Assembly (NCBI GenBank): GCA_002700365.1
Contig: PADB01000012.1
Location: 372,001 to 436,000, forward strand
Length of the DNA: 64,000 nt
Direction of reading: 5' to 3'
Source of the DNA: Kordiimonas sp.
GTDB lineage: Bacteria; Pseudomonadota; Alphaproteobacteria; Sphingomonadales; Emcibacteraceae
A program made the translations under genes and the position numbers. The notes under the pieces were generated by a model. It had not been told where the DNA came from and searched no databases. It worked only from the letters and a program-made list of their open reading frames with translations. Of this stretch, positions 7,176 through 11,200 are shown one piece after another (within the stretch, counting starts at the first letter, position 1; the number at the start of each line of letters is the position of its first letter).

Positions 7176-7973
7176 CTATATACTGGTAATAATATTGTGA
7201 TATATAGCCAAGGCAACAGCATGCATGCGGTTACTTGCCCCCAACTTTTCTTGGGCGTTTTGACAGTGATAACGGACGGTACGTTCTGAAACGCCGAGCA
7301 CCTCAGCAATCTCCATATAGCTTTTTCCCAGTGCAGATAGATGTAAACAGTCACGCTGCCGCGCCGTCAACTTATATTCAAATACTGCACGATCGGGGAG
7401 TGGGGTTGCCGCCAATACTTTTGCATGAAAATGATGCCCCGCCATCAATAAAATATCACTGACCTCATCGCAGTAATGCCAGTATTCATCACCCGACATT
7501 TCGCCTTTATAAAAACAGGCTAAAGCAGCACGTCCTTCGTCCGGTAAAGGTAACGGAATCAATACTCCCTGTGAGACACCATGATGAAATACCCCACTGA
7601 CATATTGATGCTGGTTTGCTGTTAATTTCAGCTTTTCCCTATTACAAAACAATCCTTTTGATGTTAATTCCCACGCAACGGGAAGATGACATGTCATTGT
7701 CAATTTATAGAAGGGATCAAAACGAAAATATTGTCGTTCCTGGTAACTTCTGAACCACTGATTATACCACCCCGCATTGGTAGCCATCGTAAAGGGCAGC
7801 CGAAGCCGCCCTTGTTCATCATAAGGTTGGATCATGTATGTATAATAGATATCTTCAAAACCCATGCCTTTAATAAAGTCTTGCAAATAACCAAGGGCTG
7901 TCTCTGCATCAACGCAGGAAGATATCCTGTATTTATACTCCTGATAGTTTTCATAAAATGATTGTTCTGCCAT
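7176..7973 (-). CDS. LuxR-type quorum-sensing transcriptional regulator without adjacent synthase (LuxR solo)
   Basis: The N-terminal half is an autoinducer-binding domain. Counting from the GTG at 7976, W74, Y78, D87, P88 and W102 occur with exactly the W-x3-Y-x8-DP-x13-W spacing of the TraR/LuxR acyl-homoserine-lactone pocket, and a later HHGVSQG block matches the conserved glycine region. The C-terminal LuxR helix-turn-helix (about 205-260) shows LGKSYMEIAEVLGVSERTVRYH. One usually conserved glutamate of the HTH start is Gln here (LTARQRD). There is no luxI homologue in the window. The gene starts only a few bases after the phyH stop on the same strand, so the two are probably co-transcribed and coupled. 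ATG at 7973 or GTG at 7976 are both possible. Confidence 0.9.
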   Translation of the reverse strand: MAEQSFYENYQEYKYRISSCVDAETALGYLQDFIKGMGFEDIYYTYMIQPYDEQGRLRLPFTMATNAGWYNQWFRSYQERQYFRFDPFYKLTMTCHLPVAWELTSKGLFCNREKLKLTANQHQYVSGVFHHGVSQGVLIPLPLPDEGRAALACFYKGEMSGDEYWHYCDEVSDILLMAGHHFHAKVLAATPLPDRAVFEYKLTARQRDCLHLSALGKSYMEIAEVLGVSERTVRYHCQNAQEKLGASNRMHAVALAIYHNIITSI

Positions 7974-7982
7974 CACCCTAAT

Positions 7983-8828
7983 CTATAGACGGGGATATAC
8001 TTGCGGGTATAATGCCCCTCCCATAGGATCCCCTGGTTGAAGATTATCTTCAGGTACATTGGATTTAAACATGGGCTGTTCCGTAAAGCTATATTCTGTC
8101 GGTGCATATGTGACATCATCACCTGTATAACGTAGCGCGATAGCCCGCCGACGCATATCTTTGGTCATGTTACCTAAGGCACTATGAAAAGTATTCGCAT
8201 GGTGAAGCAAAAGATCACCTGGCTCCACATCCCAACATAAGACCTCATATTTTTCTGGCTCTGCATCAAAGTCAGGCACAGGAAGCGCGTCCTCAGCGTT
8301 ATTCCAGACGTCTTTTTCCGAAAAAGTCACAGCCTGATAGTCATTTTTATAATGATGACTTCCTTTAATATAGGCAATCGTCCCGCTTTCTCTTACGGCC
8401 TTATCCAACGGCATCCATACCGACGCTATCTGCTCACCTTTTAGTGGCCAATACGAAATATCATGATGCCATGGCGTTTTATTAGGGGTATTGGGTTCTT
8501 TGACTAACAGTTGGTCACCAAAGAAGTTCACCCGACGGCTATTAAACAGTTTTTGTATCATTTCTGGCAACGGTGAATCGAAAACAAGTTCTTTAAAATT
8601 ATCATTCCACCGATAGGTATACAGGTCACCGAAGAAACGCCCTGGGGCACCATCAGCTTGCATATCCATACCAAACCCCTTTGGCGAGGCCAATACCTCA
8701 TCCACGGCGTCACGCATAAAGTCAATCCAGTCATGGGGCATAATTTGCCGCAAAACAACAGCCCCATCTTCATGGTAACGTTGTATTTCCTCGTCTGTGA
8801 TCTCTCGCAAAAGCTTTGTTGATTTCAT
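7983..8828 (-). CDS. Phytanoyl-CoA dioxygenase (PhyH) family Fe(II)/2-oxoglutarate oxygenase
   Basis: The 281-aa protein has the double-stranded beta-helix fold of PhyH enzymes. The iron triad is visible: H121-x-D123 in WHHDISYWP and a distal His in HHANTFHSALGN (most likely H215), followed by an Arg-rich strand (MRRRAIALRYTGDD) that would hold the 2-oxoglutarate carboxylate. The family hydroxylates or halogenates many small molecules, and the substrate cannot be read here. The start is supported by GGGAG six bases upstream. It is followed directly by luxR, and a lux-box-like palindrome lies 83 bp upstream, suggesting quorum control. Confidence 0.9.
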   Translation of the reverse strand: MKSTKLLREITDEEIQRYHEDGAVVLRQIMPHDWIDFMRDAVDEVLASPKGFGMDMQADGAPGRFFGDLYTYRWNDNFKELVFDSPLPEMIQKLFNSRRVNFFGDQLLVKEPNTPNKTPWHHDISYWPLKGEQIASVWMPLDKAVRESGTIAYIKGSHHYKNDYQAVTFSEKDVWNNAEDALPVPDFDAEPEKYEVLCWDVEPGDLLLHHANTFHSALGNMTKDMRRRAIALRYTGDDVTYAPTEYSFTEQPMFKSNVPEDNLQPGDPMGGALYPQVYPRL

Positions 8829-8884
8829 TTTAGGCTCCCAATATTTACGCTAGGCACAATTGTTATTTCCTGCATTAGGAAGAT

Positions 8885-8930
8885 ATTTTAGGCACTTATT
8901 TTACTGAAAAACCTGTCACTTATGACAGGG
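8885..8930 (-). promoter_or_regulatory. Candidate lux box and -10 element upstream of phyH-luxR
   Basis: ACCTGTCACTTATGACAGGG (8911-8930) has the 6-8-6 layout of the classical lux box (ACCTGT-N8-ACAGGT) and differs from it at one half-site base. On the minus strand a TAAAAT (8890-8885) would put transcription start near 8878, centring the palindrome at about -42, the usual position at LuxR-activated promoters. The same palindrome can also be read as the araC terminator (separate entry). Functional assignment is inference. Confidence 0.5.
8907..8929 (-). terminator. Intrinsic terminator of the araC-type gene (overlaps the lux-box-like palindrome)
   Basis: Read on the minus strand, a 7-bp stem (CCTGTCA / TGACAGG) with a 4-nt loop is followed at once by five T residues, 28 nt after the AraC stop codon. 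This is a compact intrinsic terminator. It competes with, or coexists with, the lux-box reading of the same bases. Confidence 0.6.
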
Positions 8931-8957: not shown

Positions 8958-9920
8958 TTATGATTTAAGAAGCTTTTTGGGGGATATACTATACTTTTCA
9001 CGGTGCAATTTCGCAAATCGCCCTAAATCATTAAACCCCCATTTCGCCGCAATGTCTGTCACACTGACAGTATCACCGCGTAGCTGGCATAACTCATCAT
9101 GCGCGTTTCTTAATCGTTCTTGCCGTTGCCATGCTTTCGGGCTCATACCTATTTCTGATATGAAGGCCCGCTGTAAACTGCGGATATTCACACCACAATT
9201 GTCCGCGACATCTGCGATCGTCATGACAGCTGGAAACTTAGCCGTCATAATATCCTGCGCCTTCCGCACAACAACTTTACGATCAAGTTTTTTAGATTGT
9301 TTATAATATGGCAGGAAAAACGTAGAAATAACCTGGTCTATAAAGAGCTGCTCCCAAATAAGGGCATCCTTGCTCTGTTCATAGCTGTCAAAAGCATCGT
9401 AGTCATCTAATTCAGTTGCATGAAGGGTGAGACTATCAAAAACCTCCATCAAATTCTGGTATCGTGGATCTGTATGCGGAATTTCCTGAGTTTCGTTAAA
9501 GTCTAGAAGCTCAAAATTGTTAAGTTCTCTATGATTATAGATGACATCCTTTGAGAAAGGGATAAGACACACACCCGAATTCTCAGGGTAATATATCTCG
9601 CCACTGAATGATGGGGAAAACAGAAAGATTGATTTGGGATCCAGCACATATTTTTCACCTTTTTCAATGACCGTAATCCCTGAACCCCATATTCTAATAA
9701 AACCAAAACTATTATTTTCAATCTTACAGGAACAATAAAAGTCTTGCCCATAACGCACTGAAATTTGTGGCAGACTATGGGCTATTCTTAACGTCATGAC
9801 ATTTGGGCCAACATTCCACTTTGGCCCTTGTATTTCAAACGTACCTATCCATTGGCGCGTGATGTTTTCAAATTCACGGCGCGTAGGTAATAACGTCAGT
9901 GCATAAGGTGTCTGTTCCAA
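8958..9920 (-). CDS. AraC-family transcriptional regulator
   Basis: The 320-aa protein has an N-terminal sensor domain of the AraC-binding-like type (about 1-200, no strong hydrophobic segments) and a C-terminal AraC helix-turn-helix pair (about 215-320), with the first helix set around VMTIADVADNCGVNIRSLQRAF and the second around VSVTDIAAKWGFNDLGRFAKLHREKY. The predicted start is TTG at 9920, supported by AGGGG five bases upstream. It is divergent from the first Rieske oxygenase gene and shares a 132-bp intergenic region with it, so that gene is its most likely target. The effector is unknown. Confidence 0.9.
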   Translation of the reverse strand: MEQTPYALTLLPTRREFENITRQWIGTFEIQGPKWNVGPNVMTLRIAHSLPQISVRYGQDFYCSCKIENNSFGFIRIWGSGITVIEKGEKYVLDPKSIFLFSPSFSGEIYYPENSGVCLIPFSKDVIYNHRELNNFELLDFNETQEIPHTDPRYQNLMEVFDSLTLHATELDDYDAFDSYEQSKDALIWEQLFIDQVISTFFLPYYKQSKKLDRKVVVRKAQDIMTAKFPAVMTIADVADNCGVNIRSLQRAFISEIGMSPKAWQRQERLRNAHDELCQLRGDTVSVTDIAAKWGFNDLGRFAKLHREKYSISPKKLLKS

Positions 9921-10052: not shown

Positions 10053-11141
10053 ATGACAAAATATCTCAGAAATACGTGGTATGTTGCAGCTGAATCTACA
10101 GAAGTAGCTAACGATGATCTTTTTGCACGCCGCATTCTAAATGAACCGGTCGTAATCTACCGCCTTGAAGACGGCAGTCCGGTTGCCCTGCGTGACCGCT
10201 GCCCCCACAGATACCTTGCATTATCAATGGGTAAGAAGGTCGGCGATACTGTCCAATGTGGCTATCACGGCATGGTTTTTGACAAGACCGGAAGCTGTAT
10301 TGAAATCCCGACACAGGACACAATCCCTGAAACAGCCTATACGAAGTCATATCCTATCGTCGAAAAATATAATTTCTTATGGATATGGATGGGTGATATT
10401 GAAAAAGCTGATGAAAGCCTGATACCTGACTTTTCGACCGTCACAAAAGGCTCCACATACGATTTTCGGACAGCCGATAAACACCCTCAACAATGGGGCT
10501 ATAAATATGTACGCGGTAATTACCAATTGATGGTTGATAACCTACTGGACCTCAGCCATGTTGGTTTCGTACATACGTCTACACTGGGATCAGAAGAGTC
10601 AACCCGCCAGCATGCCTCTGGTGAACAAAAGCAAACGGGCCGAATTGTATCGGACTACCGTCTTGCCGTAGACGTAGAATCTCCGCCAGCATTCGCCATG
10701 ATGTTACCTCATCTAAAGAAGGTAGACTTCTGGCTGGATATGCATTGTAGTTCGCCTTGCAATTTCCTGATTGAATTCGGCGTCACAGAACCAGGCAAGC
10801 CGCGTGAAGAAGGCGGACCGTTTACCGGCTTCCATATCCTTACGCCAGAAACAGAGGACACATGCCATTACTACTACGGGTCTACTTTACAAATTGATGG
10901 AATATCTGATGAGCCCATCAAAAAGCTCGGCGAGGCTGCGGTTATTGCCTTTGACGAAGACCTTGTGATTATTGAAGCTCAGCAAAAAGAAATTCAGGGC
11001 GGCAAATTTGATGATGAATCTATGGTTGCTTTGCGGGCTGATAAGGCTGCGTTAATGGCACGCCGCCTTTTAACACAGCTGATTAAAGAAGAAGAAGACT
11101 CAAAAGAACGTGAGAATGACGCAATTGCCAAAATTGCCTAA
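10053..11141 (+). CDS. Rieske non-heme iron oxygenase, VanA-like (paralogue 1)
   Basis: This is the oxygenase component of a Rieske-type demethylase or hydroxylase. The N-terminal [2Fe-2S] domain shows C-P-H-R-Y and, 17 residues on, C-G-Y-H, the four cluster ligands. The catalytic domain has DNLLDLSHVGFVH with the Fe(II) histidines, and a later FDEDLVIIEAQQ with the third carboxylate ligand. The longer open frame upstream starts at 9981, but I start at 10053 (MTKYLRNTWY): GGGG precedes it and the paralogue begins the same way. Length is 362 aa. No ferredoxin or reductase gene is nearby, so the electron donor must be encoded elsewhere. The substrate is unknown. Confidence 0.92.
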   Translation: MTKYLRNTWYVAAESTEVANDDLFARRILNEPVVIYRLEDGSPVALRDRCPHRYLALSMGKKVGDTVQCGYHGMVFDKTGSCIEIPTQDTIPETAYTKSYPIVEKYNFLWIWMGDIEKADESLIPDFSTVTKGSTYDFRTADKHPQQWGYKYVRGNYQLMVDNLLDLSHVGFVHTSTLGSEESTRQHASGEQKQTGRIVSDYRLAVDVESPPAFAMMLPHLKKVDFWLDMHCSSPCNFLIEFGVTEPGKPREEGGPFTGFHILTPETEDTCHYYYGSTLQIDGISDEPIKKLGEAAVIAFDEDLVIIEAQQKEIQGGKFDDESMVALRADKAALMARRLLTQLIKEEEDSKERENDAIAKIA

Positions 11142-11160
11142 TCCTCAGTAACCATTCCCT

Positions 11161-11200
11161 AAAAAAGCCTGCTTATCAATGTGATAAGCAGGCTTTGTTT
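11161..11200. terminator. Bidirectional terminator between Rieske gene 1 and tetR
   Basis: A perfect 13-bp stem (AGCCTGCTTATCA / TGATAAGCAGGCT, 11166-11178 / 11182-11194) with a 3-nt loop is followed by TTGTTTTTA and preceded by A6. It sits between two convergent genes and should stop transcription in both directions. Confidence 0.9.

Follow-up and report, generated by a model that had tools for sequence, protein, structure and literature searches.

Locus and palindrome

The window analysed here, that is, the whole 64-kb stretch of DNA, carries on its minus strand an AraC-family regulator gene (araC, 8958..9920; Pfam HTH_18 and HTH_AraC), followed by a 129-bp gap and by two genes that we treat as an operon. 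The first of these, phyH (7983..8828), encodes a 281-aa PhyH-family dioxygenase (Pfam PhyH, E 4e-28), and the second, luxR (7176..7973), begins after a spacing of 9 bp and encodes a 265-aa LuxR-type receptor with Pfam Autoind_bind and GerE domains. Residues H121 and D123 of PhyH are invariant among 16 homologues and are likely, from this conservation, to be metal ligands. A Rieske oxygenase gene (10053-11141; VanA_C, with a distant match to 4beta-methylsterol monooxygenase) diverges from araC and is possibly a target of that neighbouring regulator. A strong bidirectional terminator with a 15-bp stem lies at 11160-11200, where the Rieske gene and a TetR/CecR-like gene converge.

The araC-phyH gap contains a palindrome at 8911..8930 (plus-strand ACCTGTCACTTATGACAGGG; minus-strand CCCTGTCATAAGTGACAGGT), which is oriented here on the minus strand as a lux box and lies 82 nt before the phyH ATG. 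Its core, CTGTCA-N4-TGACAG, occupies 8913-8928, and its arms are symmetric over 7 bp. ACCTGTCACTTATGACAGGG matches the layout ACCTGT-N8-ACAGGT at 11 of 12 half-site positions; the palindrome, its coordinates and this match, all put forward in an earlier sequence-only reading, proved exact on re-checking, as did the minus-strand TAAAAT at 8890-8885. At up to one mismatch no other lux-box site was found in the window, and when the 129-bp gap was shuffled, only 45 of 200,000 trials reached at least 11/12 (2.3e-4).

The sequence-only reading had also pointed to the rest of the genome, where copies of the pattern might stand near other promoters. The genome measures 2.4 Mb (listed completeness 100%), and at up to one mismatch it holds eight sites. 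Six fall within coding frames and a seventh overlaps the 3' end of a cobQ-like gene, leaving the box upstream of phyH as the only fully intergenic site. The looser pattern with up to two mismatches is not enriched genome-wide (90 sites versus 81 for the reversed control). A wider lux regulon was considered and set aside: about 40 other sites reach at least 10/12, a tally that covers about half of the 10/12 sites, and nearly all are coding among the matches listed, while the two other fully intergenic sites of at least 10/12 among those matches have poor dyad symmetry. One further non-coding CTGTCA-N4-TGACAG site, with one mismatch, is found at C4:856628 between hemE and a PPSR-like gene. That gap (L255:1240-1580; G000:C4 at about 856.5 kb) carries the DnaA-box-like TTATCCACA and is probably the region of the chromosome replication origin; because the surroundings look like an origin, the match is probably due to chance, and we rejected it as a second operator.

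A LuxR receptor without a LuxI partner

The receptor is the only Autoind_bind protein of the genome, and its predicted structure (pLDDT 86.6) matches those of TraR, QscR, LasR, RhlR, SdiA and CviR. LuxR proteins have a nine-residue signature, in TraR numbering W57, Y61, D70, P71, W85, G113, E178, L182 and G188 (PMC4338825), and eight of the nine are present here. All six ligand-pocket residues are kept (W73, Y77, D86, P87, W101 and G136, corresponding to TraR W57, Y61, D70, P71, W85 and G113), as are L182 and G188, and E178 in the HTH is replaced by Q, a substitution shared with two LuxRs of the same taxonomic family that have a luxI partner and a lux box.

No LuxI-type synthase was found in the genome. 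The single PF00765 (Autoind_synth) match is a TIGR03694 exosortase-associated acyltransferase, so the receptor is a LuxR solo, and a quorum-sensing pair encoded within this genome was rejected. This PEP-CTERM/exosortase-associated acyltransferase (L046:1324-2178; G000:C1 at about 620 kb) passes the Pfam LuxI cut-off and is easily mistaken for an AHL synthase. With no synthase and a solo receptor, the signal would be exogenous, of another kind, or absent; if there is a ligand, it may be an AHL made by neighbours or an AHL-like molecule. The claim of 'quorum control' of the PhyH oxygenase was therefore too strong, since no known LuxI makes a signal in this genome.

Sphingomonads offer a precedent for connecting phyH with AHL signalling: their luxI/luxR pairs are often found next to phyH, and phyH has been proposed to belong to a quorum-regulated operon, including in Novosphingobium (PMC3704786, PMC4288048). 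The present locus shares with such Novosphingobium-type clusters the association of phyH with AHL-type signalling genes, but in those clusters phyH adjoins luxI, whereas here it adjoins a solo luxR in a genome without luxI. In another family of the order, one contig (G033:C251; L030/L114) carries a luxR-luxI-phyH-small ORF-cytochrome P450 string, with gene names assigned by inspecting translations, and its LuxR is without W57 and Y61.

Lux boxes in the family and among the nearest LuxR relatives

The classical lux box is used in the taxonomic family to which this genome belongs, as can be concluded from luxI promoters: of 16 same-family promoters, 5 have a box of at least 10/12 at 74-95 nt ahead of luxI, three of the boxes being perfect, compared with 0 of 34 luxI promoters from the order's other families; shuffled sequences gave such a box in 0.5% of trials. 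The luxI promoters of G003, G001, G024 and G020 have the same box layout as the phyH-luxR promoter at a comparable distance from the gene (74-95 nt versus 102 nt for phyH, measured from the 5' edge of the box), but the LuxRs of these genomes are LuxI-paired and lie on a different branch of the tree from the phyH-operon LuxR.

The receptor's own relatives served as a second comparison. The closest LuxR in the class, from G595 (31-32% identity, E 1.9e-40), stands before a TonB-dependent receptor gene, and the gap between the two genes contains CCCTGTCGTTTTCGACAGGT 84 nt before the receptor ATG, to be compared with CCCTGTCATAAGTGACAGGT 82 nt before phyH. In both G040 and G046 there are two luxR copies: the first copies are associated with ACCTGTCACTTCTGACACTT upstream of luxR and with GCCTGTCGGATTTGACAGCT upstream of an M19 dipeptidase gene, the second with AACTGTCAGTTTTGACACCG upstream of luxR and with ATCTGTCAAAACTGACAGCT upstream of a TonB receptor gene. 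The LuxRs of these three genomes and that of the phyH operon have a common recognition helix, ERT(V/I)R(F/Y)H, and their boxes are near-identical as well. In G012 and G014 the LuxR helix is EITVRFH, and the palindrome in the gap is CCTATCG-N4-CGATAG. All of the nearest relatives thus have a palindrome in a neighbouring promoter, mostly of the form nCTGTC(A/G)-N4-(T/C)GACAn. The LuxRs of G595, G040, G046, G012 and G014 group with the phyH-operon LuxR in one clade (support 90/84), a grouping that we regard as moderately supported by the sequences, with the phyH-operon LuxR on a long branch.

The relatives are only about 30% identical to our receptor and their neighbours are other genes, namely a TonB receptor or a dipeptidase, whereas here phyH is the first and luxR the second gene of the operon. 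An orthologous phyH-luxR operon was found neither in a first contig scan nor in a profile scan of 80 loci, none of which had an adjacent LuxR; there is consequently no close footprint of the phyH-luxR promoter. Upstream of same-family phyH homologues (45% identical) no box was found, and no luxR adjoins them. The recurrence of the box among the related LuxRs is, as far as comparison of their promoters indicates, a footprint at the level of the clade, and it favours the lux-box reading of the palindrome over its reading as a terminator, although a secondary terminator role remains compatible with it.

Promoter geometry and proposed mechanism

The putative -10 hexamer TAAAAT (8885..8890, minus strand) lies 20 bp after the box. 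From this hexamer and a predicted start near 8878, the dyad centre would fall at -42.5, which is the standard position of a lux box (PMC4471428, PMC7585371). The lux box of Vibrio fischeri and its class II LuxR promoters have the same 20-bp dyad, and the centre predicted here and the spacing of about 20 bp to the -10 agree with them, but the present locus differs from the V. fischeri system in that there is no luxI nearby or elsewhere in the genome, the genes driven are phyH-luxR, and the core is CTGTCA-N4-TGACAG. A -10-like hexamer stands exactly 20 bp past the box in four of the five target promoters of the LuxR clade (TAAAAT for phyH, TAGAAT for the M19 dipeptidase, and TACTAT and TAATAT for two TonB receptor promoters), the exception being the G595 TonB receptor promoter, where no good -10 was found at that distance. 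Chance would give this spacing in four of five promoters with P 1.5e-4, and the summed -10 score of the four promoters excluding phyH has P 0.007; these values are optimistic because the test was made only after the spacing had caught attention. The placement near -42 proposed earlier fits both the geometry and the clade recurrence, with the start near 8878 standing as a prediction.

We consider it very probable, on this comparative evidence, that the phyH-luxR promoter has its operator, a lux box, in the palindrome at 8911-8930 and that this box mediates class II activation of an autoregulated operon. A dimer of the LuxR solo encoded by the second gene would bind the palindrome, with the recognition helix (SERTVRYH) of each subunit contacting one CTGTC(A/G) half-site. 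In this arrangement the box would stand in for the -35 element, 20 bp ahead of the -10 TAAAAT, so that bound LuxR could recruit RNA polymerase from a centre at -42.5, and activation from the box would in turn raise expression of luxR itself. The autoregulation implied in the sequence-only reading is supported to the extent that the box precedes an operon encoding a LuxR and the motif recurs beside the closest relatives with the same recognition helix. Binding, activation over repression and a start near 8878 are what we infer from this arrangement, and most likely the locus is a real but fairly ordinary case of a known type of switch.

The main mechanistic rival is that unliganded LuxR represses from the box and ligand releases it, in the style of EsaR or CepR2. 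Within the CepR2 solo group, certain members are listed with an araC neighbour and with E178Q (PMC4338825), and LuxR402, a Novosphingobium solo, influences its own promoter, whose expression is raised in a knockout (PMC10413115). A box that replaces the -35 element at class II spacing, in a gap where no consensus -35/-10 pair was found, nevertheless suits an activator, and we regard repression as rather unlikely.

Overlap with a terminator-like hairpin

The bases of the box also form a terminator-like hairpin for araC (8904..8929, minus strand), with a 7-bp stem, a 4-nt loop and five T. The sequence-only reading had called it a good terminator; its parts are all there, but the stem (CCTGTCA/TGACAGG, 4 of 7 bp GC) reaches only -8.7 kcal/mol, compared with -15.8 to -22.3 kcal/mol for six clear terminators of the window. 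The T-run is particular to the phyH-luxR box, the clade relatives having 2-3 T in the first eight bases. Given the weak hairpin and the unconserved T-run, any termination of araC by the box hairpin would be partial and no more than secondary, and transcripts from araC could read through into phyH.

If the palindrome were nothing but the intrinsic terminator of araC, the lux match would be accidental and phyH-luxR would be transcribed from another promoter or by read-through. The perfect stem lies on the correct strand 28 nt past the araC stop, and the gap has no other terminator-like site. We hold this account improbable, however, in view of the stem energies, of the rarity of CCTGT in a random stem (about once per 1000) and of the recurrence of boxes lacking the T-run before the targets of related LuxRs.

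Both functions could instead be combined, the duplex serving as the operator for LuxR while the hairpin in the RNA ends araC transcripts, which would insulate phyH-luxR from araC and leave it under its own control. The sequence features of operator and terminator do occur together here, and at another same-family locus (L066) a lux box directly behind luxR is followed by five T in the first eight bases; the weakness of the hairpin and the short T-runs of the clade relatives count against it. We counted this version within the operator reading, with which it is compatible, and view it as possible though doubtful.

Wider setting of the LuxR clade

With a proposed operator, its target and its receptor all within 1.8 kb, the locus offers a LuxR solo in a small genome without an AHL synthase. 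It belongs, moreover, to a small clade with a common operator and helix and with other neighbouring targets, which could be useful for questions about solo signals and promoter rewiring. In a far-reaching form, which we consider distinctly unlikely as a whole, a Sphingomonadales-type LuxR clade would use CTGTCA-N4-TGACAG at -42.5 to activate genes for nutrient handling, namely those for TonB receptors, an M19 dipeptidase and (autoregulated) PhyH, upon an exogenous or non-AHL signal, and the operator would double as the araC terminator, with LuxR occupancy competing with araC read-through.

Across the loci of the clade (L059, L060, L237, L061/L062 and L074/L075), luxR adjoins genes for TonB-dependent receptors and M19 dipeptidases. 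At the same loci, the helix change from ERT to EIT accompanies the half-site change from CTGTC to CTATC.
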